NCBI GenBank assembly: GCA_902558075.1
Contig: CACECO010000002.1
Location: 1 to 64,000, forward strand
Direction: 5' to 3'
Origin: an uncultured Litorivicinus sp.
GTDB taxonomy: Bacteria > Pseudomonadota > Gammaproteobacteria > Pseudomonadales > Litorivicinaceae
Length of the DNA stretch: 64,000 nt
The notes under the pieces: model-generated
Databases searched by the model: none
Told to the model about the DNA's origin: nothing
What the model saw: only the letters and a program-made list of their open reading frames with translations
Translations under genes and position numbers: made by a program
Shown: positions 1,450-19,376 of the stretch, piece by piece
How the letters are laid out: each line of letters opens with the position of its first letter
How positions within the stretch are numbered: the first letter of the stretch is position 1

Positions 1450-2139
1450 TTAAGGAATCGCAACGCGTTTGATTCGCTCAACAAGGAGTCGACTGCTTAT
1501 CGCAAAATTGACACCTGCATCGATGTCCGCATCTTTGGTGAAAATCGCCGCGATCATACCCACTAGAACGCCGTTTGCGTCGACAAGTGCACCACCCGAA
1601 GCGCCAGGATTGACGGCTGCGTCCGTTTGGATAAAGTCTTCGACTGGATTAAAGCCAATGCCACCACGATGTGTCCCAGAGACAACTCCGCAACTTATGC
1701 TCACACCCAAACCAAAGGGATTTGCAATCACACAAACGTGCTGACCGGGGATAACACTTGTGGTCGTTAAATTCAGTGCCGGTCGAGAGGTCGTCGTTCG
1801 TAGTAATGCGATATCTGCGTCGCTGTCTATCCACAAAACCTCGGCATCGGCCAAACTACCGTTATAGGAATCATGAATCTGAACACGCGTAGCGCGATCA
1901 ACCACGTGTGCTGCAGTCAGAACCAGATCCGATTCACGTTCGGAATCAAGCGCGATTGAAATGCCACTCCCCTCGGGTGCGACGCCTTTTGGCGCCCCAA
2001 AACCTGGCTTTTCGTACCCAGGCCAAGTGGGAAGGACGGCGATGACTGAACGGTGTGTGTTCTGCCAAGTATGCGTGCCGTGATCGGCCAATGCAATCGT
2101 CGGACTTAAAACCAATAGCAGTGAAATAACGCTTCTCAT
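1450..2139 (-). CDS. Secreted trypsin-like (S1C/DegP-type) serine protease without PDZ domain
   Basis: Signal peptide; catalytic motifs LTAAHVVD, D.DIALL, NPGASGGALVD. Confidence 0.85.
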   Translation of the reverse strand: MRSVISLLLVLSPTIALADHGTHTWQNTHRSVIAVLPTWPGYEKPGFGAPKGVAPEGSGISIALDSERESDLVLTAAHVVDRATRVQIHDSYNGSLADAEVLWIDSDADIALLRTTTSRPALNLTTTSVIPGQHVCVIANPFGLGVSISCGVVSGTHRGGIGFNPVEDFIQTDAAVNPGASGGALVDANGVLVGMIAAIFTKDADIDAGVNFAISSRLLVERIKRVAIP

Positions 2140-3455
2140 TGAGGTGATGTGGCACGCTTCAGGTAACTAATCAAGTCCGCTCGATCTTGGTCACCGTTAA
2201 TCCGTTGCACAGGCATCTTCGAGCCCGGTGTGACAACATCAGGGCCGTCTTTAAACAACCGATCGATGGTTTCCTCGTTCCAAACAAGGTCCATCGCAAT
2301 CAATTCTTTGGAATACGGGTAATCAACTACCGCACCAACCTTTCGTCCAAATACGCCATACAAAGTTGGACCTGCCCGACGCTTACTTGAAGGTGTCAAG
2401 GTGTGACATACACTACATTTTCGGGCGAACTGTTTTTCACCGTTGTCGATCGGCTGATCTGGATGGAAGCGGCGATCACTATCAGCCAAGGGATGTGGCA
2501 CAATAAAGTCGCTAAGATTAATTTTTGTGATCCAGTCGTCCAGACCAGCGAAATAGAGGGTCTGGGCTGCGTTACCCAGTTGCATTGCCCATATCGGGCC
2601 TTTAACTGCTTTAAAATCGTGCTGAATCTCACCGACGACAGCATCAGCAATCACAATCCGCCCCTCAGCAGTGCCGAAAGCCAGCTTTTCAGACGCTCTA
2701 TCAATCGAAACTGCCAACACTGGTGGGCCACCAACCCAGAGATCGACGGATGGTCCGGAGCTATCCAGACTAATGCTCTTCATCACTCCATTGGATCCAC
2801 CAAAAGCGATGACATTTAGCTCCGCAGAGAGCTCCATCACATTAATACCAAATCCATTTCGAACCAGGCTACGAACATATTCGCCTGAACTGATATTCCA
2901 TAAGCGAATGTGACCATCACCGCCTGCTGACACAATCTGATCTTCATTCGGCATGAATTTGGCCGCATTCACAGGACCCCTGTGCCCTTTAAAGAATCGG
3001 ATCGATGACTGGTTGGATACATCCCACAAACCGACTCTTCGATCCCAGCTTGATGATAAAAGCCGCTGACTTGCATCATCGAATTCAAGATGGACTACCT
3101 TCGCGGTGTGTCCGTGGAGAGCTATGGGATGTGGTACAACTGCGGGATTCTTGAGATCGGAGACAGACCACAACAGGATTTGGTTGTCGTCGCCCGCGGT
3201 GGCAAGCCATTGACCATCGGGGGAAAAAGTCGCTGTATTGACCGCTGCGTTATGTCCAATCAGCTGTTTGAGCTCGGTCATCGACTCTGTATCCCAGGCG
3301 ACAGCCGTGTAATCAAAGCTCGTGCTCACGAGAAGATTCAGCCCAGCTGAATACGCGAGACCCTTGATTGGGCCGCCGTGAGCGGTATAACGGTCAAACG
3401 CCACCGACTGGGTTGCAACTAATAGTGAGGCGAAAAATAGGATCGCAAATCGCAT
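2136..3455 (-). CDS. Periplasmic WD40-repeat protein with C-terminal class I cytochrome c domain
   Basis: Signal peptide; repeated GH..V......D...L.S...D..V.LWD motifs; C-terminal CSVCH ... GPTLYGVFGRKVG ... SKMPV; 4-bp overlap with the protease gene. Confidence 0.88.
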   Translation of the reverse strand: MRFAILFFASLLVATQSVAFDRYTAHGGPIKGLAYSAGLNLLVSTSFDYTAVAWDTESMTELKQLIGHNAAVNTATFSPDGQWLATAGDDNQILLWSVSDLKNPAVVPHPIALHGHTAKVVHLEFDDASQRLLSSSWDRRVGLWDVSNQSSIRFFKGHRGPVNAAKFMPNEDQIVSAGGDGHIRLWNISSGEYVRSLVRNGFGINVMELSAELNVIAFGGSNGVMKSISLDSSGPSVDLWVGGPPVLAVSIDRASEKLAFGTAEGRIVIADAVVGEIQHDFKAVKGPIWAMQLGNAAQTLYFAGLDDWITKINLSDFIVPHPLADSDRRFHPDQPIDNGEKQFARKCSVCHTLTPSSKRRAGPTLYGVFGRKVGAVVDYPYSKELIAMDLVWNEETIDRLFKDGPDVVTPGSKMPVQRINGDQDRADLISYLKRATSPQ

Positions 3456-3491: not shown

Positions 3492-3785
3492 TTAGTCAGC
3501 CATCCGTATAATGAATTGGTAGGGTGGATCAATCGATTGCATCGAAACGATTTGGTGGCCAGCGAGCTTACAATAAGCAGGGACATCTTTCAGTGTCGTC
3601 GGGTCGCTGGTTTGCAATCGAATTGTCGAACCTGGCTGGAGAGGCTCTATTCGCTTTTTTAGTTTTAAAACTGGTAATGGACACCGGAGACCAACCACGT
3701 CAATCTCCAGGTCCACATTGACACGATCAATCAAGTCTGACCGAAGGTGCCGACTGAGTTTCTGCAGACGAGAAACCCATTTCAC
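3492..3785 (-). CDS. TusA-like sulfurtransferase (true start probably an internal TTG/GTG)
   Basis: DVVGLRCPLPVLKLKKRIEPLQPGSTIRLQTSDPTTLKDVPAYCKLAGH matches the TusA/SirA CPxP fold. Confidence 0.82.
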   Translation of the reverse strand: MKWVSRLQKLSRHLRSDLIDRVNVDLEIDVVGLRCPLPVLKLKKRIEPLQPGSTIRLQTSDPTTLKDVPAYCKLAGHQIVSMQSIDPPYQFIIRMAD

Positions 3786-3852
3786 TCAACACAAAATAGG
3801 CACCGACAGACACAACTGCTGTAAAAGCAAACGCTGCTAACATCGTCTTCAT
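3727..3852 (-). CDS. Small single-TM protein (41 aa) inside the fdh operon; not in the ORF track
   Basis: Reverse-strand translation MKTMLAAFAFTAVVSVGAYFVLSEMGFSSAETQSAPSVRLD*; ATGA overlap with fdhC stop; its stop lies within the start region of the TusA-like ORF. Confidence 0.6.
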   Translation of the reverse strand: MKTMLAAFAFTAVVSVGAYFVLSEMGFSSAETQSAPSVRLD

Positions 3853-5030
3853 CGTAGATCTCCAACTTTTTGAATCGGAGCACCTTTCGCCTCTTCTTCT
3901 TCAACCCACAGATCGTGGTGCTGTCTGGCCCATTCGAGGTCAACCTGTCCATTACCCATGGCGTCAAATGCACCTTCCATCCCAACACTTCCAATATAGA
4001 TATGTGCAACGATCGCAATGATCATCGTAGTAGCCACAATTGCATGCCACAGGTGTGCGAGCTGCATTTCCTCGTGTGGAAGCAAGTCAGTTTGTAAGCC
4101 CATCGCTGGTATGATCGTATTGATAACCTCAAATGTCGATGCGAACATCGGAAACTCAAATGGGAATAACAATGAGAGGCCTGACATCGAAACTGAGGCG
4201 CCGAGTATCACCGTCATCCAAAAAATGAGCTTTTGACCACCATTGAACTTTCTGGCGGAGGGGTGTGCGTTTCCAACAATTCCGCCACCCTTGGCAAACC
4301 ACTGGAGATCAAGCTTGGTCGGAATGTTGTGAGCAACCCACATCACGAAAATTGCCACCAACGAGGCCATAAATACCCAGGCGATGTTGTTGTGCACCCA
4401 AATAGAGAAGGTTGCGATCGCAGCATTCGCTTCATGTCCAAATACAGGGATGATGACCGAGCGACCAAACAGCAGTAACAATCCAGTGATTGCGAGCATA
4501 ATGAATGACCCCGCGAGACACCAGTGACCAAAACGCTCGAATGCTTTGAACCGTTCGATGGTTCGGCCTGATGGTCCACCTTCGATTGCCATACGACCGC
4601 GCAGGAAATAGAAAGCAGTCAGCGCAACGATTATGCCGCCGATACCATATCCAGCGAACGCTTGGATACCACCCTGACGTGTCAATAACCAGCCCATGCC
4701 TCCATCCTGCACTAAAATCTCGGACGCATGGCTGTTATTAGACACTTTTACGTCCGTTTCGGCATATCGAATGCCGCGATAAAGATCAGAACTCGAGACC
4801 CCACCTAGCACGCCCAAGTTATCAGAGATTGACTGAGCATTCTCAGGGTTTCCCAAATTATCACGACGAAATGATTCGTCGACTTCGAGCCCTTTCTGTC
4901 GCGCAAGAATATCCTCTAGCGTCTGGGCTCCACCTGTCGATGCACGTTGACCCTCGTCTTGGGAGTGAGCCGGAGTCACGGCAAACGTTAAAAGTGCGGC
5001 TAAACACGCACCTAATACCTTTAAATTCAT
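3849..5030 (-). CDS. Formate dehydrogenase gamma subunit, cytochrome b556
   Basis: Signal peptide, long periplasmic extension, then RFKAFERFGHWCLAGSFIMLAITGLLLLFG and multi-TM cytochrome b pattern; operonic with alpha and beta subunits. Confidence 0.9.
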   Translation of the reverse strand: MNLKVLGACLAALLTFAVTPAHSQDEGQRASTGGAQTLEDILARQKGLEVDESFRRDNLGNPENAQSISDNLGVLGGVSSSDLYRGIRYAETDVKVSNNSHASEILVQDGGMGWLLTRQGGIQAFAGYGIGGIIVALTAFYFLRGRMAIEGGPSGRTIERFKAFERFGHWCLAGSFIMLAITGLLLLFGRSVIIPVFGHEANAAIATFSIWVHNNIAWVFMASLVAIFVMWVAHNIPTKLDLQWFAKGGGIVGNAHPSARKFNGGQKLIFWMTVILGASVSMSGLSLLFPFEFPMFASTFEVINTIIPAMGLQTDLLPHEEMQLAHLWHAIVATTMIIAIVAHIYIGSVGMEGAFDAMGNGQVDLEWARQHHDLWVEEEEAKGAPIQKVGDLR

Positions 5031-5102: not shown

Positions 5103-5711
5103 TTAACCGCCTTTCTTCTCGTAGGCAGTTCCCCAGCCCCATGCACCCGAACCGAAACCACGAGTCACTACGCGCTCACGATAAATCGCAGCTACGTCGT
5201 CACCGTCGCCGGCCAAAAGTGCTTTGGTCGCGCACTGCTCGGCACAACTAGGGAGCTTTCCTTCCGCAATACGGTTACTACCGTACTTCTGGAACTCAGC
5301 CTGCGAGAGGTCCTCTTCAGGACCACCGGCGCAGAATGTGCACTTGTCCATCTTGCCTCGTGAACCGAAGTTACCCGCTTGCGGGAACTGTGGAGCACCG
5401 AACGGACACGCATAAAAGCAGTAGCCGCAACCGATACACAGGTCTTTTGAGTGCAACACGACCCCGTCGTCTGTTTGATAGAAACAATCGACAGGACAGA
5501 CCGCCATACAAGGCGCATCTGAACAGTGCATACAAGCCACAGAGATTGACCGCTCACCAGGCTTACCATCATTAATGGTCACGACCCGACGCCGGTTAAT
5601 ACCCCAAGGCACTTCGTTTTCATTCTTACATGCGGTTACACAAGCGTTACATTCAATGCAGCGCTCGGAGTCGCATAGGAATTTGGCTCTCGCCTTTCCA
5701 CCTAATGACAT
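5103..5711 (-). CDS. Formate dehydrogenase beta subunit, 4Fe-4S ferredoxin
   Basis: CIECNACVTACK, CMHCSDAPCMAVCP, CIGCGYCFYACP motifs; next to the alpha subunit. Confidence 0.93.
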   Translation of the reverse strand: MSLGGKARAKFLCDSERCIECNACVTACKNENEVPWGINRRRVVTINDGKPGERSISVACMHCSDAPCMAVCPVDCFYQTDDGVVLHSKDLCIGCGYCFYACPFGAPQFPQAGNFGSRGKMDKCTFCAGGPEEDLSQAEFQKYGSNRIAEGKLPSCAEQCATKALLAGDGDDVAAIYRERVVTRGFGSGAWGWGTAYEKKGG

Positions 5712-5723
5712 AATTTATCCTCC

Positions 5724-8612
5724 TTACGCTGGCATGATTCGACATAACGTACACTTGGTTTCCTGCATTTGGGTAACCGAGTCATAACCATATGTCCCTA
5801 CTGTGTTAGCAGATTCACCAAGTACATACGGATCAGCTCCGTCTGGATACTTGGCCCGCAAGTCTTCGCCCTGCAAAATGCCGCCGAAGTGGAATGGCAT
5901 AAATGCAACACCCACGCCAACGCGCTCGGTGACCATTGCTTGGACTCTCACTTTTCCGCCTTCAGGGCCTTCCACCCAGACCATGTCTCCATCACGAACG
6001 CCAAGATTATTTGCGTCACGCGGATGGACTTCGACAAACATCTGTTGCTGAAGCTCTGCTAGCCAAGGGTTTGAACGTGTTTCATCACCACCACCCTCAT
6101 ACTCAACCAAACGACCTGAAGTCAAAATGATTGGGAAGTCTTTCGAGAAGTCGTTCTTCTGGATTGACTCATAGAGAGTTGGCAGGCGATACGCAAACCG
6201 ATCTTCGTACGTTGGGTAATCCTTCACGAGATCGCGACGGTTCGTGTACAGAGGCTCACGGTGCAACGGTACTGGATCAGGGAAGTTCCACACCACTGTC
6301 CGTGCCTTTGCGTTACCAAACGGCGCACACTCATGCTTGATAGCAACTCGCTGGATGCCACCTGACAAGTCAGTCTTCCAGTTCGTCTTCGCGCCAGCAA
6401 CCTTATCGATCGCCGCACGCTCATCAGCAGTCAGATCTTTATCCCAGCCAAGGTCCATCAGCATTTGCATCGTGAATTCTGGATAGCCGTCTTTGATCTC
6501 CGACCCTTGTGAGTACACACCTTCTGCAAGAAGGTTTTCGCCGTCCCTTTCAACACCGAAACGTGCACGGAAGGTCAAACCACCTTTCGAAACTGGCTTC
6601 GACATGTCATACAGATTTGGTGTACCTGGGTGCTTCATCTCAGGAGTACCCCAAGATGGCCATGGCATACCGTAGAAATCACCGTCGCAAGGACCGCCAA
6701 CTGCTTGCAGCGTGGTCTTGTCGAATGTGTGCTGGTTCGCCATATGCGCCCTAATCCGCTCCGGAGACTGGCCGGTGTAGCCGATTGTCCACATACCACG
6801 GTTGAATTCACGGGTAATGTCTTCAATCAGCGGCTCGTCGCCATTGACCTTAATATTACGGAAGAAACGATCAGAGAAGCCGAACTTGTCTGCAAACAAC
6901 TTCATAATCACGTGATCTGGCTTCGACTCGAACAATGGATCGATGACTTTCTCACGCCACTGGATTGAGCGGTTTGAGGCCGTTACAGAGCCATACGTTT
7001 CAAACTGCGTGGTCGTTGGAAGGAGATAGACTCCATCTTGACGATCGTGAAGGACCGCAGAGACTGTTGGGTGCGGATCAACCACAACCAATAGATCCAA
7101 CTTCTCCATTGCTGTCTTCATGTCTAGCTGACGCGTCTGAGAGTTAGGGGCGTGACCCCAGAGGACCATGGCACGGGTATTATTTGGCTGCCCAAGGTTT
7201 TCCTTGGCTTCCAAGATACCATCGATCCAACGAGAAACAGGAATACCTGTCTCGTTCATCATCGCCTTGTCCTTTCCATCTTTGGTCTTCATGGTCGCAA
7301 AACGATTCTTCAACCAATCGAGATCCTCTTCCCACACACGAGCCCAATGCGCCCATGACCCTGGCTTCAGGCCGTAGTAGCCTGGCAATGTGTTCGCAAG
7401 AACACCAAGATCTGTTGCGCCCTGAACATTACAGTGACCACGGAAGATGTTGGTTCCACCGCCTGACGCACCCATGTTGCCCAATGCCAACTGCAGGATA
7501 CAGTATGCGCGGGTGTTGTTATTTCCGTTGGTGTGCTGCGTTCCACCCATACACCAAATAACAGTGCCTGGACGATTATTTGCTAACGTACGCGCTACAC
7601 GCTCGATTTGTGAACCTGGAGTTCCAGTGACGCGCTCGACTTCCTCTGGGTTCCACTTCGCGACTTCTTTCCTGATGTCGTCCATGCCCCAGACCCGAGT
7701 GCGGATGAACTCTTTATCTTCCCAACCGTTCTCGAAGACGTGCCACAAAATGCCCCAAATCAGCGGTACGTCAGTACCAGGACGGAACCGCACGTACTCG
7801 TCCGCGTGAGCGGCTGTTCGCGTGAAACGCGGATCGCATACAATCACTGGTGCATTGTTTTGCTCTTTTGCTTTCATGATGTGCTGCAAAGACACAGGGT
7901 GAGCTTCAGCAGGGTTACCACCAATCAAAAAGATCGCTTTTGAGTTATGAATATCGTTGTACGAGTTTGTCATCGCACCATAGCCCCAGGTGTTCGCGAC
8001 ACCCGCTACAGTCGTTGAGTGACAAATCCGCGCCTGGTGATCAACGTTGTTCGTGCCCCAGTAAGCAGCAAACTTACGATACAGATATGACTGCTCGTTG
8101 TTTGTCTTCGCAGAACCCAACCAGTACACACTGTCTGGACCGCTCTCTTCACGAATCTTAAGCATTTGATCTCCAATCTCGTTGATCGCCTGCTCCCACG
8201 AAACACGGGTGTAGGTTCCATTAACCAACTTCATTGGATACTTCAAACGACGCTCACCATGACCGAGTTCGCGAACCGCTGAACCCTTTGCACAGTGTGC
8301 ACCCAAGTTAAACGGGGAATCCCAACCGGGCTCCTGTCCAACCCAAACGCCATCACGCACCTCCGCCTGGACAGTACAGCCCACTGAGCAGTGCGTACAA
8401 ACGCTCTTCTTAATTGCAGTTTTTGCATCGCTCGACGCAGAAGCGGCTGCTTCTACTGAACGTGGCGTCATCGAAAACGCAGCTAAACCACCCACAGCCA
8501 GACCGGTAGAACGCAAGAACGTCCGACGGTCCATTTTATGGGAGACTACGTTTTTCAGTAAGGATGACACTTGGGAGCCAACTGCTACCCCATTCGCCTT
8601 TTTCCTTAGCAT
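5724..8612 (-). CDS. Formate dehydrogenase alpha subunit (Mo/W-bisMGD, Tat-exported, Cys ligand)
   Basis: Tat motif RRTFLRS; CTHCSVGCTVQ 4Fe-4S site; ARICHSTTVAGVA (Cys at the Sec/Cys position); downstream bis-MGD oxidoreductase motifs. Confidence 0.95.
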   Translation of the reverse strand: MLRKKANGVAVGSQVSSLLKNVVSHKMDRRTFLRSTGLAVGGLAAFSMTPRSVEAAASASSDAKTAIKKSVCTHCSVGCTVQAEVRDGVWVGQEPGWDSPFNLGAHCAKGSAVRELGHGERRLKYPMKLVNGTYTRVSWEQAINEIGDQMLKIREESGPDSVYWLGSAKTNNEQSYLYRKFAAYWGTNNVDHQARICHSTTVAGVANTWGYGAMTNSYNDIHNSKAIFLIGGNPAEAHPVSLQHIMKAKEQNNAPVIVCDPRFTRTAAHADEYVRFRPGTDVPLIWGILWHVFENGWEDKEFIRTRVWGMDDIRKEVAKWNPEEVERVTGTPGSQIERVARTLANNRPGTVIWCMGGTQHTNGNNNTRAYCILQLALGNMGASGGGTNIFRGHCNVQGATDLGVLANTLPGYYGLKPGSWAHWARVWEEDLDWLKNRFATMKTKDGKDKAMMNETGIPVSRWIDGILEAKENLGQPNNTRAMVLWGHAPNSQTRQLDMKTAMEKLDLLVVVDPHPTVSAVLHDRQDGVYLLPTTTQFETYGSVTASNRSIQWREKVIDPLFESKPDHVIMKLFADKFGFSDRFFRNIKVNGDEPLIEDITREFNRGMWTIGYTGQSPERIRAHMANQHTFDKTTLQAVGGPCDGDFYGMPWPSWGTPEMKHPGTPNLYDMSKPVSKGGLTFRARFGVERDGENLLAEGVYSQGSEIKDGYPEFTMQMLMDLGWDKDLTADERAAIDKVAGAKTNWKTDLSGGIQRVAIKHECAPFGNAKARTVVWNFPDPVPLHREPLYTNRRDLVKDYPTYEDRFAYRLPTLYESIQKNDFSKDFPIILTSGRLVEYEGGGDETRSNPWLAELQQQMFVEVHPRDANNLGVRDGDMVWVEGPEGGKVRVQAMVTERVGVGVAFMPFHFGGILQGEDLRAKYPDGADPYVLGESANTVGTYGYDSVTQMQETKCTLCRIMPA

Positions 8613-8682
8613 GAAAATCCTCCTCAGGATTTCTGTGAATAACTGATCAGGGCCTTATGCAACCTGACGTTATTCGTTTTTA

Positions 8683-8883
8683 TTAGAACCGTGCTGTCTC
8701 GAGATACTTCTTATAGTGTGCATTCTTGCGAAGACCACTATCTTGACGAATCTCTACTTCAGAACTTGCAAGCGCCTGTGTTCCCGCTGTTGCAGCGACC
8801 GCTGCAACTGGTAAACCAGTCGTAACAAGTTTCAAGAAGCCACGGCGCCCTGCCTGTGTTGTTTTCTGTTCACTCATGAACAT
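8683..8883 (-). CDS. FDH-region Tat-target small protein
   Basis: RRGFLKLVTTGLPVAAVAATAGTQALAS Tat leader with short tail, directly upstream of fdhA; likely start MSEQ at 8877. Confidence 0.8.
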   Translation of the reverse strand: MFMSEQKTTQAGRRGFLKLVTTGLPVAAVAATAGTQALASSEVEIRQDSGLRKNAHYKKYLETARF

Positions 8884-8922
8884 CTCCTTGTTGTGCTTTC
8901 ACACCTACTTTTGCCTTTCGGC

Positions 8923-9537
8923 CTACTCGATACGGAAAGATTCTTGCTCAATACCCACCAACAGCTGACCTAGGGAGCCAACTGGGGCATAGAGCACAGC
9001 ACTTTCTGCCTTTTCGAGATCGCTAAAACAATGCGCGGCCCAAGGGGCTATGTGCGCATTGAAAAATTCTTTCTGGGCTTGTAATGGCATTGGTTGACCA
9101 AAGGCACCGTTAATCATCCCCGCCATCATCTCGCACAATGCCCCTAAATGATCTTCAGGCTCAGGGATTCCTTGCTTTCGCCGAATACCAAGACTGCGCA
9201 TTTTCGCTCGAAGGTCAGCAAGCGGCTTCTCGTGGAGAAAGCCTGTAAGGTAGTAACTCGCGTAGGGTAATACCTCACCCCTGCCGACGCCGATAAACAA
9301 AATGTTGTACTCACGCTCCACTGCGTCTGCAGTCAACGATTTCGCTAATTGGGAAAGGGTGTTGATGGCTGACCCAACTTCACCCGCGTCTCCCTGCAGC
9401 GCACTCAACCGATCAAGTGTTGATTGATTTGGCACCTGCAGTAGCAAGTTTCCAAGCAACGTATAAAGATGAGCGCGAATCTCATCTTCTGGCGCAATTG
9501 GCTGGGTGGCCATTTCGATCGTTGCTTTGGCAGTCAT
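8923..9537 (-). CDS. TorD/DmsD-family molybdoenzyme chaperone
   Basis: YNILFIGVGRGEVLPYASYYLTGFLHEKPLADLRAKMRSLGI pattern, ~200 aa, in fdh cluster. Confidence 0.88.
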   Translation of the reverse strand: MTAKATIEMATQPIAPEDEIRAHLYTLLGNLLLQVPNQSTLDRLSALQGDAGEVGSAINTLSQLAKSLTADAVEREYNILFIGVGRGEVLPYASYYLTGFLHEKPLADLRAKMRSLGIRRKQGIPEPEDHLGALCEMMAGMINGAFGQPMPLQAQKEFFNAHIAPWAAHCFSDLEKAESAVLYAPVGSLGQLLVGIEQESFRIE

Positions 9538-9697
9538 TTATCACTCAAGTCCTGTCTGAGCGGCCCGTTTGGAGCGTTCTTGTTAACTTAGTCAGCAAGT
9601 TTACCTTTTTGACCTAGAGAGGCAAGCGTTTTAGCAAAAAAACGTGATATTTCAGTCACTTGCGAATGCAAGTCATTTGCATTTGTAAATAGCCATG

Positions 9698-10339
9698 TTA
9701 TGGCGCATCGAAGCGCATTCGTCTCGGCCGAGGTACAATCGTCACCCGTTCTGGGATGTCGTTGTTCAGCAATGACAAATGATTCTGAGGCGTGACTCCC
9801 TGGTCAGGCGTATCAGACTCGGCAAAAGTCTCTTCTGAATCGGCAGACTCTTCATCTTCAAGGCGGGTGTCGACCTGTGCAACGATCGCTGACCCCAACT
9901 CTTCATCGGTCGACGTATCGTCATCAGCCAATGACTCTAGCGAATCAAGGGCCTGCTCTGCGTAGCCTTTACCAACTTCATAAATAGTCTGTAAGTTTTC
10001 AATTACTGTGGCTGCATCAGTGTAATCGTCGCAATACTCATCGAGCCCGTCGATATTCGCGAGCAAAGGGTTTGTTTTCCAAAAAGCACGCAGGGCGCGC
10101 GCTCGTATACGCTCAGGTACACGGCCATCCATGAACTTTTCGACAGTATCCCCCAACTTTAAGGTGTCCGGCTCAGGTAACTCCAAAATTGATAGAATTT
10201 CTTCGTCGGACTTGTCCTCAAATTCATCCTCGACCGATTTAGCTTCGTCAGAGGTGGGAAGGGCAGCATCGGTATCTTCAGATTCGGGTCTTAACTTCCG
10301 ATCCGACCACCTCGATAAGAATCCTTTGTCTTCGCTCAA
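9698..10339 (-). CDS. DUF3306-like FDH-cluster protein
   Basis: GFLSRWSDRKL N-terminus, acidic linker, then region ending RPRRMRFDAP; typical of the FDH-cluster DUF3306 family. Confidence 0.75.
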   Translation of the reverse strand: MSEDKGFLSRWSDRKLRPESEDTDAALPTSDEAKSVEDEFEDKSDEEILSILELPEPDTLKLGDTVEKFMDGRVPERIRARALRAFWKTNPLLANIDGLDEYCDDYTDAATVIENLQTIYEVGKGYAEQALDSLESLADDDTSTDEELGSAIVAQVDTRLEDEESADSEETFAESDTPDQGVTPQNHLSLLNNDIPERVTIVPRPRRMRFDAP

Positions 10340-10941
10340 TGTTTCTTCCTCTTCCGCAACGAGGCTGGAGACATGTAAACGTCGTTGATTTGACTTACAC
10401 GCGGATCACCTATCCCCTCATCGACTTGGTCTACCTCCAACCGATCGCGCTTGCGCTTTTTGAACGGCTCCTCAACAAAGTGATGATCAACAAATTGCTG
10501 AGCCCAACTCGCAATGATCGGTGGTATCGGAACTGCCTCGACAAGACTAAAACCACTGTCTAAAAGATCCTGAGCCTCGTAAGGCGACAAAGTCACATCA
10601 GTCACTTGCCAGCCACCGGGGGACCCGCCAGTCTCATCTTCATCCAAGATCACAAAGGCGGATGGAATCTCCATCGACAATGCAACACGATACGCTTCAA
10701 CATCCGATCGATAGAGCGTGAGTGAGAGTGTTCTCGCGTGATATTGGGTGACGTCGCCCTCAGAGCGAAGTTCAACCCAATGGGCAATATCAGCCCCGGG
10801 AATCAAGCCTGATGGCTTCCAGATTTCCGACGCCCAGCGCGTAACGCCTGGATGTCTACTCACAACGATTCCCACCGGCATGGATATCATCCGTGCAGAA
10901 AACAAATCCGACTGATCGATGTGTTGGTTTGGGTCGCCCAC
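10336..10941 (-). CDS. DUF3305-like FDH-cluster protein
   Basis: ISMPVGIVVSRHPGVTRWASEIWKPSGLIPGA ... LSLTLYRSDVEAYRVAL; adjacent to DUF3306-like gene with ATGA overlap. Confidence 0.78.
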   Translation of the reverse strand: MGDPNQHIDQSDLFSARMISMPVGIVVSRHPGVTRWASEIWKPSGLIPGADIAHWVELRSEGDVTQYHARTLSLTLYRSDVEAYRVALSMEIPSAFVILDEDETGGSPGGWQVTDVTLSPYEAQDLLDSGFSLVEAVPIPPIIASWAQQFVDHHFVEEPFKKRKRDRLEVDQVDEGIGDPRVSQINDVYMSPASLRKRKKH

Positions 10942-10998
10942 AGATTTTTTTCCTTGAGATCTTCTTTTTGTTTCTTTTGCCCTTAATTCGAGTAGTCT

Positions 10999-13038
10999 AT
11001 GGTGACAGCTTTACAAAAAGATAGCCCCTCAACGATGAAAACCAACACCACCTTAATTTTATGTCGCTGTGACGGCAGCCTTAAATACAACCGTGAAGTC
11101 TTTGAAAGTCACGGCTTCAATGATGTCATCGTCACCGATCAACTCTGTGGAAATGACCTAGATGTTGCCTTCGCCGCACTGACGGAACGTGAACAAGTCG
11201 TTTTCGCTTGCGAACAACAAGCACAGATATTTGAGCAGTTAACTGAAGAACTCTCTGTGGAAAATGCACTCAAAGCATCACTAGGTCTGATTGATTTGAG
11301 AGATCGCGCTGGGTGGACTGCAAAGGATGAAAAAGACGCTTTAATTGAAGGCAAACAACTCGCGTTGCTAGCGGACGCAAGCCTCGATCGACCCGGCACG
11401 AAAGTTCGTGAAGTCACATCATCAGGAACTTGCTTGATCATTGCGAAAGATTCGAGTGTCTTACCATTCGCTGAAATCCTTGGTGATGAATTAGCGGTGA
11501 CTTGTGTATTGGAAAAACCACCAGCGAAAACCAGCCCATCAGGAAAATATGATTTGGCAATTGGACAGATTCAATCAGTAACCGGCGGTCTCGGTGCCTT
11601 TGATGTGGCATTCACACAGTTTGCAACACTGATTGCAACCGGCCGCGGTGATACCCACTTTTCCACACCCAAAGACACTGCATCATCAACTTGCGACATT
11701 GTGATTGACCTTGTCTCAGAGCAATCGCTCCTCGCCGCAGAGGCAACTCGCGATGGCTATTTGAGAGCACCCAACGCAGACGCGCTAAAGCTCGCTCGAA
11801 TCGGAGCCGAGGCCAAGGGACTGGTCGGTACCTTCGAAAAGCCGCTGTACGTGAAATATGAAGGCTCAATGTGCGCGCATTCACGATCTCAAAAGACAGG
11901 TTGTACACGCTGCGTTGATACCTGTGGTGCACAAGCCGTCCAGTCTAATGGTGACGGCGTTTATGTAGATCCTGACATGTGTGGAGGCTGTGGGGGTTGT
12001 GCATCTGTCTGCCCAACAGGCGCTATCATCTACGATGACCCACCTTTCGAATTTATGGTGCAACGTCTAAAGACACTCATTGAAACGTTCCAAAGTCACA
12101 CACAAACAGCACCACGAGTATTTTTCATCGACCGTCATTTCGGTCGTCATTTAATCGCAGAATCTGCTCGCTTCAGCCAAGGGCTGCCCGCGGATGTCAT
12201 CCCCTACGAAGTGGATAATGTGGAGCTGATTGGTCATGCAGAGCTACTTGCAGCGCTCGCGGCCGGTGCAAGTGAAGCGCTGATTCTTAAATCACCAAAA
12301 ACAGCCAAGACAGCAATCGAAAATCAATCGGCATTAACACATCGGTTGTTAGGTGCTACACGTGTCGATGCTCAGCGTGTCAAAGTCATCGAGGCCAATG
12401 ATATTGCCTCACTTGAAGAAGCCTTGTATGGAACGCGAATGCCAGCGCTTAGGCATGAAGAAATCGCATTGCTCGGCGGTCGTCGCGAGGTTGCCAAACG
12501 AGTCACAGCTGCGTTTCTTGAGCACGATGGTGAGTCATCCAGTTCAATCGCTCTTGAGCTCGGTGACCCCTACGGCACGATCGAAGTCAACTCGGGTAAG
12601 TGTACGTTATGCCTGGCTTGCGTTTCACAATGCCCAACCGGTGCCCTCAATGATCGTTCGGATCGCCCTGAAATCAACATCGTGGAAAATGCGTGTGTCC
12701 AGTGTGGTCTATGCGCCAACACGTGCCCTGAGCAAGCGATCACACTGAAGCCGCAGCTCAGCTTCGGACCACAAACGCTAGAACAGACCTCATTGCACGG
12801 GGAAGACCCGTTTGAGTGTATCGAATGCGGGCGTCCGTTCGGTGTAAAATCCACAATTGAGCGCATCATTGAGAAGCTCGAGGGCAATCATTGGATGTAT
12901 ACCGACTCGGACAACACCAAATTAGTGAAGATGTGTGACGACTGCCGCATTAACGCTCAGTACCACGATGCCACTGCACCTCTGCGCGGTCCCGATCGTC
13001 CAAGAGTCAGGACGACCGACGATTACCTTGACAGCTAG
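10999..13038 (+). CDS. Multi-cluster 4Fe-4S ferredoxin of the FDH cluster
   Basis: CTRCVDTCGAQAV, CGGCGGCASVCPTGAI, CTLCLACVSQCPTGAL, CVQCGLCANTCPEQAI plus C-terminal CxxC pairs; alternative start at 11035. Confidence 0.85.
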   Translation: MVTALQKDSPSTMKTNTTLILCRCDGSLKYNREVFESHGFNDVIVTDQLCGNDLDVAFAALTEREQVVFACEQQAQIFEQLTEELSVENALKASLGLIDLRDRAGWTAKDEKDALIEGKQLALLADASLDRPGTKVREVTSSGTCLIIAKDSSVLPFAEILGDELAVTCVLEKPPAKTSPSGKYDLAIGQIQSVTGGLGAFDVAFTQFATLIATGRGDTHFSTPKDTASSTCDIVIDLVSEQSLLAAEATRDGYLRAPNADALKLARIGAEAKGLVGTFEKPLYVKYEGSMCAHSRSQKTGCTRCVDTCGAQAVQSNGDGVYVDPDMCGGCGGCASVCPTGAIIYDDPPFEFMVQRLKTLIETFQSHTQTAPRVFFIDRHFGRHLIAESARFSQGLPADVIPYEVDNVELIGHAELLAALAAGASEALILKSPKTAKTAIENQSALTHRLLGATRVDAQRVKVIEANDIASLEEALYGTRMPALRHEEIALLGGRREVAKRVTAAFLEHDGESSSSIALELGDPYGTIEVNSGKCTLCLACVSQCPTGALNDRSDRPEINIVENACVQCGLCANTCPEQAITLKPQLSFGPQTLEQTSLHGEDPFECIECGRPFGVKSTIERIIEKLEGNHWMYTDSDNTKLVKMCDDCRINAQYHDATAPLRGPDRPRVRTTDDYLDS

Positions 13039-13796
13039 GGATTGAATTGAATCGGTTTACCCAAATCAAGTGGCGTCAACGAATTCACAAAAGCAACGAT
13101 GTCGTTAACATCGTCCATTTGCAGGTCGATTGGCGCAATCGTGATCAACGCACGATTTTTTTCAATTCCAGATCCTTCGACTGAAATCAAAGCTTTATGC
13201 GGCGACACAGCATAAAACCTCGAAAACCGGATGTACCAGTCATCGAACGATCGCATTGCATGGAACGAAGGCGCGTTATCAATGCCTGCGTACTTGTCGG
13301 CACGATCAACTTTGTGACAACGGCGACAGTGGTCACTCGACAGCTCTCGGCCATGGTCAATATTTCCGACAATGACCATCTCAATCGGAGCAGCTTCATC
13401 GGCGGCCGTCGGAATCGCGATCTGCCGACCATCCAACTCAAAGTCAGCAATCGTTGCCCGACCCGGCTCACTGACAAGCCAATCAACAAACGCTCGATAA
13501 TCAGAACTTTCGACGGCTCCGCCGACAGCAGTAATGTAAACCGTCTCTCCAGAAACCAATTTCAGTACTTCAGCTCCGGTTTCTGGCCGCTCGGTCACCA
13601 ATTGAATATCGCCAGAAGACTCTACCTGATCAAACCGAATCCGAGTTTTCAGAGAAAATCTTGGAATCACATACTGAACCAGTTCCGAAGGAATGACTAT
13701 TTCATGAGACAGACTTAATCCAAAAGCACTGTTAAATCCCATTGCCAACGAACTGACCCAAGCAACTGTTATGAGTTTTATTGTTTTTCTAATCAA
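13035..13796 (-). CDS. Secreted protein combining a ModA-like segment with a cytochrome c heme motif
   Basis: Signal peptide; GETVYITAVGGAVESSDYRAFVDWLVSEPGRATIADF resembles a ModA C-terminus; downstream CRRCHK heme site. Confidence 0.65.
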   Translation of the reverse strand: MIRKTIKLITVAWVSSLAMGFNSAFGLSLSHEIVIPSELVQYVIPRFSLKTRIRFDQVESSGDIQLVTERPETGAEVLKLVSGETVYITAVGGAVESSDYRAFVDWLVSEPGRATIADFELDGRQIAIPTAADEAAPIEMVIVGNIDHGRELSSDHCRRCHKVDRADKYAGIDNAPSFHAMRSFDDWYIRFSRFYAVSPHKALISVEGSGIEKNRALITIAPIDLQMDDVNDIVAFVNSLTPLDLGKPIQFNP

Positions 13797-13853
13797 TCGA
13801 CACCACCTGATAGACTGAAATAAGTCATACTTATCATGACATAGGAGACAGCT

Positions 13854-14051
13854 ATGAGCGAAGATAACTTTAATCTTTCAATGCGTAAGTTTTTAAAATC
13901 AGTTGGCGTCACTTCGCAACAGAAGATCGAAGAAGCTATTCGCGCGATTGACGCTGGTTCGGGCTTAACAAGCATCGATTTGACAGTCACACTAACGTGC
14001 CACGAAATCGGTCTTCGGCATGAGGTCAAAGGCACCATCGAGCTACCGTAA
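13854..14051 (+). CDS. DUF6494-like small protein (65 aa)
   Basis: MSEDNFNLSMRKFLKSVGVTSQQKIEEAIR...; directly upstream of mrp. Confidence 0.65.
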   Translation: MSEDNFNLSMRKFLKSVGVTSQQKIEEAIRAIDAGSGLTSIDLTVTLTCHEIGLRHEVKGTIELP

Positions 14052-14071
14052 CCGTATGATAGGACATTGAA

Positions 14072-14923
14072 GTGAGTGATCCCCAATTTAAAGATGCAGG
14101 CGTCATCGCAACCGACGGCGGCGGGCAAGGCCCGAAAAAAGAAGCTCAGCCAACACTCGAGGTGAAGGGCGTCAGGCACATCGTGGCTGTTGCGTCAGGT
14201 AAAGGTGGCGTTGGCAAGTCAACAGTTTCATCCAACCTTGCCGTCGCACTGGCGATGCGTGGACTCAAAGTCGGTCTTCTGGATGCCGACGTTTATGGCC
14301 CAAGTCAGCCTAGGATGCTTGGTGTCAGTGGTCGACCATCAAGCCCAGACGGCCAGACCATTCTTCCGCTCAGAAATCATGGCGTCACCTTAATGTCGCT
14401 GGGATTGATGATGCCTGACGACGAAGCCTTGATTTGGCGTGGGCCGATGCTGATGGGGGCGCTGCAACAGATGCTGGGACAGGTACAGTGGGGACAGCTC
14501 GACGTTCTGTTGGTCGACCTTCCACCTGGCACTGGCGATGTACAAATGACGTTAAGCCAAAAAGTGAATGTCACTGGTGCTATGATTGTCTCAACACCGC
14601 AGGATATTGCGCTACTCGATGCCAAAAAGGGGATTGATATGTTCAAGCGTATGGACGTTCCATTGCTTGGCTTTGTCGAAAATATGGCTTCGTTTATTTG
14701 CGATGGTTGCGGCAAAGAACACCATCCGTTCGGAAATGGTGGGGCTAAAGCAGAAGCTGAGAAACAAGGGATACCCTTCCTCGGCGAAATTCCGCTCGAT
14801 TTGGCGATTCGAGTTGCCTCTGATGGCGGGGTTCCGATGGTTGTCGCTAAACCATCAAGTCCTCAAGCAAAAGCATTCTTTGACATCGCTGATCAGTTAA
14901 TCGCAAGTGAGGTATTGAATTGA
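14072..14923 (+). CDS. Mrp/ApbC/NBP35-type Fe-S carrier P-loop ATPase (GTG start)
   Basis: ASGKGGVGKSTVSSNLAVALA Walker A, DVQMTLSQ, CDGCGKEHHPFG. Confidence 0.93.
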   Translation: MSDPQFKDAGVIATDGGGQGPKKEAQPTLEVKGVRHIVAVASGKGGVGKSTVSSNLAVALAMRGLKVGLLDADVYGPSQPRMLGVSGRPSSPDGQTILPLRNHGVTLMSLGLMMPDDEALIWRGPMLMGALQQMLGQVQWGQLDVLLVDLPPGTGDVQMTLSQKVNVTGAMIVSTPQDIALLDAKKGIDMFKRMDVPLLGFVENMASFICDGCGKEHHPFGNGGAKAEAEKQGIPFLGEIPLDLAIRVASDGGVPMVVAKPSSPQAKAFFDIADQLIASEVLN

Positions 14924-15639
14924 TCTTTGGGGATGTGATTACCGATCCAACCTTTCCACCGCTATTGAGCGGTGAAAAAGTCTCAAAAGTAGTGGACCCC
15001 TTCACTAAAGCAGTTAGTGCTTCAATGATGGGTTGCGAACCAGGAGTCGTTTTCTACGCGGAAGACCAAGATACGTTAAATGCAGCGATTACACTTGGGC
15101 CTGAAATTGCTTTGAAAGAAAGCGTATCGGTTGTCCATGCGTTGATGTTATCGCTCGCTGATAGTCTGGGTGCGCTTGGGCCACCGGAGCTGGCTGTGCA
15201 TTTTTTGTGGCCATGCGACTTCAAAGTGAACGCGGCACGCTGTGGGGGTATCCGGTTCAAGGCGTCAACGACAGAGCCCGATACCATTCCAGACTGGTTA
15301 GTTGTTGGTCTAACGTTACCGTTTGTAAGGCCAGAATCGATTGAACCAGGCTCAGACCCCTCACAGACTTGGTTGTACGAAGAAGGATGTATTGAATTAA
15401 CTGTTCCGCAAGTGATCGAAAGCTGGTCACGGCATTCGTTGGTCTGGCTGAACTCATTTGAAGAGAAAGGCTATCGGGGAATACAGGATCATTGGCGAGC
15501 AAAGTGTGACTCGATCGGATCAGAGGTTACCTATCCAAACCAGGGTACATTTGTAGGGACTGACGAGAAAGGAAGTTTACTTCTCAAATGCGACGGAATG
15601 ACAAGTATTCACCGATTGATTGATGAGATGGCACCATGA
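14920..15639 (+). CDS. Biotin/lipoate-ligase-like protein, apparently lacking catalytic motifs
   Basis: LAVHFLWPCDFKVNAARCGGIRFKA resembles the ligase WPND...K.xGI region; TTG start overlapping mrp stop. Confidence 0.6.
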   Translation: MIFGDVITDPTFPPLLSGEKVSKVVDPFTKAVSASMMGCEPGVVFYAEDQDTLNAAITLGPEIALKESVSVVHALMLSLADSLGALGPPELAVHFLWPCDFKVNAARCGGIRFKASTTEPDTIPDWLVVGLTLPFVRPESIEPGSDPSQTWLYEEGCIELTVPQVIESWSRHSLVWLNSFEEKGYRGIQDHWRAKCDSIGSEVTYPNQGTFVGTDEKGSLLLKCDGMTSIHRLIDEMAP

Positions 15640-16112
15640 AATTAGCACGAACAATTCGCCTCGACGGATCCGATGATAACATTTTCGAGAGTCCTGCAAG
15701 TGCCGGAGAATGGTCAATTAGCGGAGGCTTTGAGTTTTCGGATTGGAGCGAAGACGATCTCACTGGTAAGCCGCGCCAAGCATTTTCAAATGGCTGGTTA
15801 TCCCTTGAGTCTTTCGGCAGGGCAACTTTTGTCGCAGTCGCGCCAATCACCGACGCAGAATACGAGGCGCTGACACAGAAGCTCGCTCAATACTTCGTAG
15901 ATCAATATGGTGCGCCTGACATCGAAGCCGCCATTCCAGTTGCAAAAGACGAGCTTGATCATATGCAGAGTATGTGCGAAGACCATGAAGACAACACGCT
16001 GTTAATGGTTAGCCGCTCGTTGAATGAATCAGGAATCCATGAATCTTATCGATACAACAGTCCACAGGGTGCTTCACTCGAAACATTTGCTGTTCACGGA
16101 TCTGTGGACTGA
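15636..16112 (+). CDS. DUF6505-like FDH-cluster protein
   Basis: MKLARTIRLDGSDDNIFESPASAGEWSISGGFEFSDW...; ATGA-coupled to the ligase-like gene. Confidence 0.65.
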   Translation: MKLARTIRLDGSDDNIFESPASAGEWSISGGFEFSDWSEDDLTGKPRQAFSNGWLSLESFGRATFVAVAPITDAEYEALTQKLAQYFVDQYGAPDIEAAIPVAKDELDHMQSMCEDHEDNTLLMVSRSLNESGIHESYRYNSPQGASLETFAVHGSVD

Positions 16113-17380
16113 GAAGGTCTCAAAAACTCTGCGTAAGGAATATATCGAACCACTGTGCCAGGTTCGATCAACTCCTCCTCAAACCCGATCTCGACAAGTC
16201 CGTCTGACCAACTGATACTAGAAATTCGACCTGAGCCTTCAGATGGAAACACATCAACTCGGCCGACTGCATTAAGACGCGCTCGCAGATATTCAGACCG
16301 GCCACGACGTTTCTTCTTCTTAAAATCAGCAACGATTTCATAGCCTCGAGGATCTCGCCAAATACCCCCGGCCAACACCTCCATTGCGGGCCGCCCAAAG
16401 ACCATCGTGCATACCCATGCTGCAACAGGGTTACCAGGGAGACCAATCACAGGTGTTCCTTCCCAAACCCCAAGCGCAAGTGGACGACCGGGTTTCAAAG
16501 CAATTCGCCAGCTTGTCAACTGGCCCTCTGATTTCAAAATTGCAGAAATGTGGTCTTCATCGCCGGCAGACGCACCACCAGAAGTGATAATCAGATCACA
16601 GCACTCAGCGCCTTGATTCAATGTATCCCGAACCGTATCACGCGAATCCTCCACAAGACCCAAATCGATCGCCTCAAATCCAAGATCACGCAACATCGAT
16701 AGGAGCATGAGACGATTAGCGTCGTAAATTTGCCAATAGTCAGCTAACTCCCCGGGCTTTCTTAACTCATCACCAGTCGATAAAACGCCAACGCGGAGAC
16801 GTGAAAATACCTCAACCTCAGCAACCCCAGCCGACGCGAGCAACGAAAGATCAGTTGCAGTCAGACGTCTCCCGCACTTTAATATCGGCGTCCCAACAAT
16901 CACATCTTCGCCCACTTCACGGGTGTTGGACCATTGCTTTAATGGTCCATTGAATGCAATTCGCTGTGGCTCAATCGTGCAATCCTCCTCTAACACAACG
17001 GTGTCCACACCGTCGGGCAAAATCGCACCGGTCAAAATCCGGACTGCTTGACCTTTTTCCACACAGCCAGCAAAAGGAACACCGGCTGCGGCGCGCCCAT
17101 CACATAGCTGCATAATTTGCGGGCCGTCTGGAATTGGACCCGCAAACCCATAACCATCAACCGCTGAATTAGATCCCGGTGGATTTGACCTGACTGCTCC
17201 AACATCGGCAGATAGGATTCGATCTGAAGCGGTTTCAACTGGAATTTGATGACCTGCGCTTACAACCGTCGATAATGCATCTTTGAGAAGTTTTTTGGCC
17301 TCATTGACAGGCGTCCAGTCAACGCCTGGTGGCAGTGCGAAACAGTCATTTCGAAGCGGTGGCGGTTGAATTTCGGTCAT
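16094..17380 (-). CDS. moeA: Molybdopterin molybdotransferase MoeA
   Basis: AVDGYGF, VRILTGAILPDGVDTVVLEED, LSTGDEL, TSGGASAGDED, GLPGNPVA motifs; start chosen at MTEIQPPP. Confidence 0.93.
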   Translation of the reverse strand: MTEIQPPPLRNDCFALPPGVDWTPVNEAKKLLKDALSTVVSAGHQIPVETASDRILSADVGAVRSNPPGSNSAVDGYGFAGPIPDGPQIMQLCDGRAAAGVPFAGCVEKGQAVRILTGAILPDGVDTVVLEEDCTIEPQRIAFNGPLKQWSNTREVGEDVIVGTPILKCGRRLTATDLSLLASAGVAEVEVFSRLRVGVLSTGDELRKPGELADYWQIYDANRLMLLSMLRDLGFEAIDLGLVEDSRDTVRDTLNQGAECCDLIITSGGASAGDEDHISAILKSEGQLTSWRIALKPGRPLALGVWEGTPVIGLPGNPVAAWVCTMVFGRPAMEVLAGGIWRDPRGYEIVADFKKKKRRGRSEYLRARLNAVGRVDVFPSEGSGRISSISWSDGLVEIGFEEELIEPGTVVRYIPYAEFLRPSQSTDP

Positions 17381-17873
17381 GTACATAGTTCCAAATAAAA
17401 TCGGCAATAGATGAGATATCGTTGAGATTGAAAACCGGTATATCAAGTCCGCTGATCTCATAATCAGAGGCCACGGCAACAATCGATGAGTCCTCTTCTG
17501 CCAACACACTTGTCTGACGCTTTGCTCGACGTACCTCAAGTTTTGGAATTGGAGTCTTCTTAAATCCCTCAACCAAAACAAGATCACAGGGCGCCATGCG
17601 ATTTAATAATTCATCCAATTCAAACTCAGGCTGACTTCGATATTCATGCATCAAAGCAAACCTAGATCCTCCAGCTAACATCACCTCCTGGGCTCCCGCC
17701 CGACGATGCCGAAAACTGTCGGTTCCAAACCGATCAACATCAACGTTGTGATGCGTATGTTTGACCATTGACATCGTCAATCCGCGAGCTGTAAATTCCG
17801 AGACCAATCGTTCTGCCAGTGTCGTTTTTCCAGAGTTTTTCCAACCGACAACACCAAACACCGGAGTAGTCAT
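17346..17873 (-). CDS. mobB: Molybdopterin-guanine dinucleotide biosynthesis protein MobB
   Basis: VVGWKNSGKTTLAERLVSEF Walker A; KHTHH; LVEGFKKTPIPKLEV. Confidence 0.92.
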   Translation of the reverse strand: MTTPVFGVVGWKNSGKTTLAERLVSEFTARGLTMSMVKHTHHNVDVDRFGTDSFRHRRAGAQEVMLAGGSRFALMHEYRSQPEFELDELLNRMAPCDLVLVEGFKKTPIPKLEVRRAKRQTSVLAEEDSSIVAVASDYEISGLDIPVFNLNDISSIADFIWNYVHDRNSTATASK

Positions 17874-18496
17874 CGTCGCTCCTCCTGTTGGGCAGCGACC
17901 AGATCTTCCCGCGTATTGACATTAAAAAATGGATCGCGCGAACCAGAGGCATGAGCAAATTGAACCTCAGCCCCCCTAACTGAATCAGTCCAAATCACGA
18001 TCTTCCGAATACCCCGTTGCAATGCATCACGAAGATTGTTCTCGAGCGACACGTGCCAGAGCCCAAAGGTTGGATGGCGCATCCATTTCGACTTCTCATC
18101 ATCGAAGCTTGACGCAAGAACGACAGGAGCCTGACTTTCCAGCGCTTTCCCCATGGCCCTAGCGACGAAATCAGTCGGAAAGAATGGCGTATCGGCAGCG
18201 ACCGAAGCGACCCAATTAAACTGATGCTCCCGAGCGTATTCAAGCGCAGCAAGTACCCCTGCCAGTGGACCCAGATACCCGGTTAGTGAATCAGTAATAC
18301 ATGGGAGCCCAAACGAACCAAATCGCTCAACATCACCGTTGACGTTCAACACAACATCATCAACCTGGGGATGGAGCCGCTCTAAGACTTCGTCAAGAAT
18401 TGTTTTCTGTCCAAGTCGCAATAGTCCCTTATCAGAACCGCCCATCCGAGTAGCAAGACCACCTGCTAGCACGACTCCCAAAATTCCATCATTCAT
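17870..18496 (-). CDS. mobA: Molybdenum cofactor guanylyltransferase MobA
   Basis: GVVLAGGLATRMGGSDKGLL; start chosen at MNDGILGVVLAGG. Confidence 0.92.
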   Translation of the reverse strand: MNDGILGVVLAGGLATRMGGSDKGLLRLGQKTILDEVLERLHPQVDDVVLNVNGDVERFGSFGLPCITDSLTGYLGPLAGVLAALEYAREHQFNWVASVAADTPFFPTDFVARAMGKALESQAPVVLASSFDDEKSKWMRHPTFGLWHVSLENNLRDALQRGIRKIVIWTDSVRGAEVQFAHASGSRDPFFNVNTREDLVAAQQEERR

Positions 18497-19376
18497 CAAC
18501 AGCACTCTTGCGACGGTGTTTTTTATCTTCTTCTGGCACTGACTCTGGATCCGTATCGAAGACCAAACGTTCTTCACCACTCAAACAAATGAATTTTCTA
18601 CCACGCATTCGGCCGATCAACGTTAGGCCCACTTGCTTCGCAATGTCGACGCCCCATGCCGTGAATCCAGACCGACTGATGAGAACCGGGATCTCCATCA
18701 ACGCTGTTTTGATCACCATTTCAGACGTCAACCGGCCCGTGGTGTACATGATTTTATTATCAGGCGCCACCGCCTCGAGGTGCATCCAGCCTGAAATCTT
18801 ATCGACCGCGTTATGGCGACCTACATCTTCCATATACACCAGAGGCTTGTCCTGTTCGCAGAGAATCGTGCCGTGAATTGCTCCGGTTTCAAGATACAGG
18901 CTTGGGGTTCGATTGATTAAGTGACTGAGGTGATAAATCCATGATGTATGGACAGGAGTCGCTGCCAACTTGACTTGATCGACACCTTCCATCATGTCTC
19001 CAAAGACTGTGCCAATCGCACACCCTGATGTTCGCGTTTTTTTGCTCAACTTTTCTTCGTAGTTCGACTCGCACTCGGTACGTACAACAACCACTTCCAA
19101 TTCTTCGTCGTACTCGACAACTTCAATCACATCATCAGACTTCAACATTCCCTGATTTTTTAAAAATCCAACTGCGAGGTACTCGGGATAATCGCCGATG
19201 GTCATTGCAGTCACGATTTCTTGGGCGTTAAGGTATATAGTCAGTGGGCGCTCTTCGATAACAGATGTCTCAGTGGACTGACCATATTGATTGACTCCCT
19301 GAATCAGACGCGACAATCGGGGGTCATTCGGATTGGGCCGGATCCGATAGGATTCAATGTGATCTAGTGTTGGCAT
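18489..19376 (-). CDS. fdhD: FDH sulfurtransferase FdhD (single-Cys variant)
   Basis: TSGCAIGT, VYMEDVGRHNAVDKISG, TTGRLTSEMVIKTA, SRSGFTAWGVDIA motifs. Confidence 0.93.
   Translation of the reverse strand: MPTLDHIESYRIRPNPNDPRLSRLIQGVNQYGQSTETSVIEERPLTIYLNAQEIVTAMTIGDYPEYLAVGFLKNQGMLKSDDVIEVVEYDEELEVVVVRTECESNYEEKLSKKTRTSGCAIGTVFGDMMEGVDQVKLAATPVHTSWIYHLSHLINRTPSLYLETGAIHGTILCEQDKPLVYMEDVGRHNAVDKISGWMHLEAVAPDNKIMYTTGRLTSEMVIKTALMEIPVLISRSGFTAWGVDIAKQVGLTLIGRMRGRKFICLSGEERLVFDTDPESVPEEDKKHRRKSAVDE

Follow-up and report, generated by a model that had tools for sequence, protein, structure and literature searches.

A protein of 253 amino acids encoded in an FDH3-type formate dehydrogenase island of a gammaproteobacterium that, judged from named relatives, is Litoricola/HIMB30-like joins a TupA lobe A to a single-heme cytochrome c, a novel combination of domains whose component families were both already known. 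The island lies in the window, the whole stretch of 64,000 nucleotides of DNA analysed, and the fusion protein probably serves the formate dehydrogenase specifically, in electron transfer or as a helper. With moderate confidence, we read it as a periplasmic cytochrome dedicated to FDH3 whose TupA lobe, which has lost its metal site, would serve as a docking module. Databases label it “hypothetical” or “c-type cytochrome”, and no published description was found in the literature searched, which covered subscription journals in part. FDH3-type formate dehydrogenases are common in marine Rhodobacterales, about a third of whose sampled genomes carry the fusion protein. CO2 reduction is one subject of research on Mo/W formate dehydrogenases, yet the island proteins beyond fdhABC are largely unnamed. 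If the fusion protein is the electron partner or activator of FDH3, it is a component that efforts to understand or produce the enzyme have lacked.

A TupA lobe joined to a single-heme cytochrome c

The gene and its parts, in the coordinates of the window, are as follows:

13035..13796, minus strand: TupA-lobe/cytochrome c fusion protein, 253 aa, TTG start (open reading frame and homologues)
13719..13796, minus strand: putative signal peptide, residues 1-26 (fast-evolving hydrophobic helix 2-18 in the AF2 model; inferred cleavage site)
13401..13718, minus strand: shortened TupA lobe A, residues 27-132 (hhalign, Foldseek, pLDDT)
13038..13367, minus strand: cytochrome c domain, residues 144-253 (Pfam PF00034, Foldseek)
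13314..13328, minus strand: heme motif CRRCH, C157-H161 (sequence; C157, C160 and H161 invariant in 41 sequences)
13197..13199, minus strand: His200, candidate second axial heme ligand (sole other invariant His/Met, 41 of 41 sequences)

The features from which the original prediction started (the open reading frame, an N-terminal hydrophobic segment, a quoted segment and one CRRCH motif) are all present here, and the reading frame and start position are the same in close relatives. The gene converges with that of a 4Fe-4S protein (10999..13038), the two sharing their last 4 bp, and is divergent from the DUF6494 gene (13854-14051), at a distance of 57 bp. An AF2 model based on 41 sequences has a mean pLDDT of 89.5, with values mostly of 95-98 in the lobe domain; in an earlier model from 14 close relatives the cytochrome half was poor (mean pLDDT 71), a defect cured by the addition of Rhodobacterales rows. 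Model and Foldseek together give an SBP-like lobe plus a cytochrome c rather than a plain cytochrome, as had been anticipated.

The N-terminal domain is a complete but shortened TupA lobe A, and lobe B is absent. Profile-profile comparison (hhalign) of an alignment of 21 relatives with TupA sequences from related loci, signal peptides removed, matched residues ~27-132 to TupA lobe A over the whole domain length (E 1.4e-15, score 88.0), the top score of 60 column-shuffled controls against the lobe domain being 17.5, and found no match to TupA lobe B (E 0.31). The two halves of the domain map separately onto full-length TupA, at positions 12-38 and 214-250, in agreement with the published borders of lobe A (2-76 and 201-251) and lobe B (91-200) (PMC5517513). 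Residues 98-132 align to the last positions, 229-263, of the NCBIfam TupA model NF041772 (E 0.022), for which the fusion protein scores 14.1 bits, below the curated cut-off of 400 bits, and in a profile search of PDB sequences the TupA-type entries 3muq, 3cvg, 5my5 and 3lr1 match at the corresponding ends. For both AF2 models the first-ranked PDB match in Foldseek is TupA 5my5 (prob 1.00), with a weak E-value (0.007-0.024), as expected when a single lobe is compared with a two-lobed protein. The likeness to TupA (Desulfovibrio alaskensis 5MY5; NF041772) is thus one of lobe A sequence and fold, and both ends of the chain align in the correct order. Profile and model found only lobe A and not the two-lobe TupA-type fold with crossing strands; what is missing relative to TupA is lobe B and loops of lobe A.

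These results refine what had been proposed for this half, namely that a segment resembling the C-terminal end of ModA had been left by loss of the middle of the ModA fold. The SBP resemblance stands as more than chance (88 against a maximum of 17.5), and lobe B is indeed absent, but the N-terminal half (EIVIPSELVQYVIPRFSLKTRIRFDQV) is likewise SBP-derived, and the profile check against ModA and TupA came out for TupA. ModA as the parent of the lobe was rejected, the window's ModA fragment scoring only 35 against 88.0; against the lobe domain, the window's ferric-binding-protein-like SBP reaches 19.

TupA contacts tungstate through Thr9-11, Ser12, His59, Arg118, Thr124 and Asp170 (PMC5517513). 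By alignment, the equivalents of the lobe A residues (Thr9-11, Ser12 and His59) are deleted or replaced in the fusion protein, where TTS(T/F)xNSG of TupA becomes SHEIVIPSE and LLVH becomes QLVT, and Arg118, Thr124 and Asp170 are gone along with lobe B. The fusion protein therefore differs from TupA in having neither lobe B nor TTTS/His59/Arg118/Thr124/Asp170, and in being joined to a cytochrome.

The cytochrome domain contains one CxxCH motif, in the invariant form CxRCH, which bears out the single heme motif originally noted, and carries the signature PSF..(M/L)R..DW..RF..FY...PH. Its score for PF00034 (E 0.0015, 20.2 bits) is below the cut-off of 21.3 bits, three relatives reaching 21.4-21.8 bits, and in Foldseek this half matches mitochondrial-type cytochromes c (5ncv_A, prob 0.94). 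No invariant Met that could be the second axial ligand was found in the 41 sequences (at position 181, 20 have M and 21 have L), in all of which His200 is conserved, and from the sequences we infer His/His ligation of the heme by H161 of the motif and His200.

Relatives of the cytochrome occur without the lobe. Stand-alone cytochromes of 125-160 aa (L034/L042, L036/L044, L059/L070) share with the fusion protein CxxCH and TPSF...DW...RF..F...PHP, whereas they have no N-terminal lobe and the fused forms have an extra C-terminal tail of the PADLGAP type. Such family members lie in alphaproteobacterial FDH islands at three loci (L044, L070, L072), near island genes at one (L042) and outside FDH loci at four (L043, L067, L069, L071). 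Two other lobe-less proteins are closer to the fused forms: one (L066, genome G520, 9472-9903), from an alphaproteobacterium and complete with the C-terminal tail, stands in this type of island where the fusion protein otherwise stands, and the other (L100, near 9500), from the same order as the fused forms, is encoded far from its own island. The cytochrome-domain tree places both with the Litoricola and fused alphaproteobacterial proteins (99/96), apart from the stand-alone forms; they may have lost the lobe or never had it, both of which fit the tree. Since a lobe-less form occupies the same island slot, the cytochrome is taken as the core and the lobe as an addition.

The formate dehydrogenase island and its distribution

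The window contains the genes that define an FDH3-type island (fdhABC, TorD, DUF3305, DUF3306, 4Fe-4S protein and DUF6494-Mrp-BPL-DUF6505) in their fixed order, with the fusion gene among them:

3849..5030, minus strand: formate dehydrogenase gamma subunit, cytochrome b561 type (PF01292, E 2.1e-21)
5103..5711, minus strand: formate dehydrogenase FDH3 beta subunit (Fer4 domains; 88% identical to a gene annotated fdh3B)
5724..8612, minus strand: formate dehydrogenase alpha subunit (FdhA), Cys type (ARICHS) (TIGR01591, E 1.6e-140)
8923..9537, minus strand: TorD-family chaperone (PF02613)
9698..10339, minus strand: DUF3306 protein of the island (PF11748)
10336..10941, minus strand: DUF3305 protein, island marker (PF11749; co-occurrence)
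10999..13038, plus strand: 4Fe-4S protein of the FDH island (open reading frame and domain search)
13854..14051, plus strand: DUF6494 protein, divergent neighbour (PF20104)
14072..16112, plus strand: Mrp/NBP35 ATPase, biotin/lipoate ligase-like protein and DUF6505 (same order in Rhodobacterales)

In FDH3 islands of Roseobacteraceae a homologue, annotated “hypothetical protein” or “c-type cytochrome”, occupies the same slot, the window's island differing in having fdhD, mobA, mobB and moeA directly attached. On plasmids of Tateyamaria, Sagittula and Sulfitobacter the order is DUF6505, biotin/lipoate ligase-like protein, Mrp, DUF6494, homologue and 4Fe-4S protein, followed by DUF3305, DUF3306, TorD, a small Tat protein, fdhA, fdh3B and the gamma subunit, and a TupA-type transporter lies near the FDH island in those records. 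TupABC was not found in the window, nor was a match to TupA in its own genome (72% complete); sister genomes have TupA.

Homologues were found in 16 of the 22 genomes of the genus. Outside it, a sample of 399 genomes from the phylum yielded full-length homologues in one family (f69), to which a larger alphaproteobacterial sample added another (f170); the order of the first is called Rhodobacterales here on the strength of the named plasmid records, for every one that has this island and a homologue belongs to Roseobacteraceae. Within Rhodobacterales 46 of 149 genomes carry a homologue, with the lobe present in 45 of the 46. In the genus and in this order the gene almost always takes the same position within an FDH3-type island. 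All 12 alphaproteobacterial genomes with a match fall among the 42 of 289 that have DUF3305 (P 2e-11, shared ancestry ignored), and all 46 Rhodobacterales carriers have DUF3305, which is present in 79 of the 149 genomes (P 2.7e-17, again ignoring shared ancestry). The two genes are within 6 kb on the same strand in 42 carriers, and in the other four the fusion gene is away from DUF3305. The fusion protein is not essential to the island, since 33 of the 79 Rhodobacterales genomes with DUF3305 have no match to it. Synteny is a stronger argument for the link to the enzyme than the co-occurrence probabilities, and the two together sustain the predicted tie to formate dehydrogenase and its conservation beyond this genome.

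Other genes lie close by. A WD40 beta-propeller protein with a C-terminal cytochrome c (2136-3455) is a second exported cytochrome of the island; its gene overlaps that of a trypsin-like protease (1450-2139) and lies by fdhC in several FDH islands of Rhodobacterales and other alphaproteobacteria (L037, L044, L047, L066, L068, L072). Between it and fdhC is encoded a TusA-like sulfurtransferase (3492-3785; PF01206), kept in other Litoricola islands and possibly a sulfur carrier for FdhD-dependent cofactor sulfuration. At the edge of the window are encoded a ModA-type protein (47-550), cut short where the contig begins, and a regulator (525-1391) with HTH and PBP-like domains. On the opposite side, the DUF6494, Mrp/NBP35, biotin/lipoate ligase-like and DUF6505 genes (13854-16112) adjoin the fused cytochrome in the islands examined, and no literature linking these four to formate dehydrogenase was found.

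Possible roles of the fusion protein

An exported cytochrome that is specific to the island, next to a periplasmic formate dehydrogenase whose gamma subunit is a cytochrome b, most likely acts as redox partner or activator of that enzyme, and a role of the fusion protein in electron transfer is plausible. In the reading we favour, the single-heme c-type cytochrome, predicted to be exported, would serve the FDH3-type periplasmic enzyme of its own island. In the periplasm it would exchange electrons with FdhAB(C) or with a partner encoded alongside, most obviously the WD40-cytochrome c, and the TupA lobe, which has lost both lobe B and the oxyanion site, would hold the cytochrome against that partner. 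Because it has no ligand site and yet keeps an unvarying basic motif, the lobe is most readily interpreted as a surface for docking, although to assign docking to the conserved PRFxLK is a guess. Counting against a cytochrome partner is the gamma subunit itself, a cytochrome b561, by way of which formate electrons can reach quinone without cytochrome c. The favoured reading is also weakened by the four Rhodobacterales carriers whose gene is away from DUF3305, by the stand-alone relatives outside FDH loci, and by the 33 genomes that have DUF3305 but no match.

A precedent in concept is offered by methanol dehydrogenases, in that the cytochrome XoxG and the periplasmic binding protein XoxJ are both required for XoxF-dependent growth (PMC7391723). 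There, too, a cytochrome c and an SBP-type protein attend one periplasmic dehydrogenase, but they are two separate proteins and the enzyme is unrelated, so that the likeness is in concept only. It is a tentative suggestion, which we hold to be somewhat doubtful, that a TupA-type lobe recruited for docking or activation and fused to a cytochrome constitutes a one-chain counterpart of XoxG/XoxJ for formate dehydrogenase; if true, this would define a new class of accessory proteins for Mo/W enzymes.

The protein might instead be a maturation or activation factor whose action on FDH3 would precede or accompany catalysis (redox priming, oxygen protection or activation), much as the SBP-like XoxJ/MxaJ are thought to activate methanol dehydrogenase beside XoxG, here with both parts in one chain. 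We consider this unlikely. The joint requirement for XoxG and XoxJ would suit it, as would the position of the fusion gene among assembly-type genes (4Fe-4S, DUF3305/3306, TorD, Mrp, ligase) and not beside fdhABC; XoxJ, however, is a whole periplasmic binding protein, the parallel is conceptual, and the fusion protein is predicted to be exported whereas a cytoplasmic location is expected for most of these neighbours.

In Litoricola pairs the lobe has a dN/dS of 0.08-0.24 and the cytochrome one of 0.04-0.11, and purifying selection acts on both domains; the lobe is therefore not a decaying remnant, and the word “remnant” used of it originally does not hold in that sense. A pseudogene or decayed remnant was ruled out by these ratios and by broad conservation. 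That the lobe is a passive N-terminal extension, arisen by chance gene fusion and kept only since its folding stabilises the cytochrome, appears quite improbable: lobe dN is ~1.5 to 5 times that of the cytochrome domain and a lobe-less form occurs in the same slot (L066), as such an origin would allow, but 45 of 46 Rhodobacterales carriers keep the lobe, and P45, R46, F47, K50, W106, L107 and S109 are invariant in all 38 fused sequences, those of Litoricola included. The lobe offers a clean case of a metal-binder of transport that has lost its site and one lobe and persists under selection inside a redox protein.

Mo/W is inserted into the cofactor in the cytoplasm prior to export. The original prediction's oxyanion-binding sensor or metal-loading protein, in which the lobe would bind molybdate or tungstate in a manner coupled to the heme, is very improbable and was rejected, for although the lobe descends from TupA and TupABC genes occur in several of the same islands, all tungstate contacts known for TupA are absent from the sequence or gone with lobe B (PMC5517513), a ligand would find no second lobe to enclose it, and metal enters ahead of export, as described for tungsten insertion in a formate dehydrogenase (PMC13197769).

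Origin of the Litoricola island

None of 273 gammaproteobacterial genomes outside the genus has a homologue of the fusion protein, which fits horizontal acquisition of the island. Sequence comparison makes the Litoricola FDH3 island (window 5724-19376) look imported from Alphaproteobacteria; its fdhA is ~76-79% and its fdhB 87-90% identical to those of Rhodobacterales.
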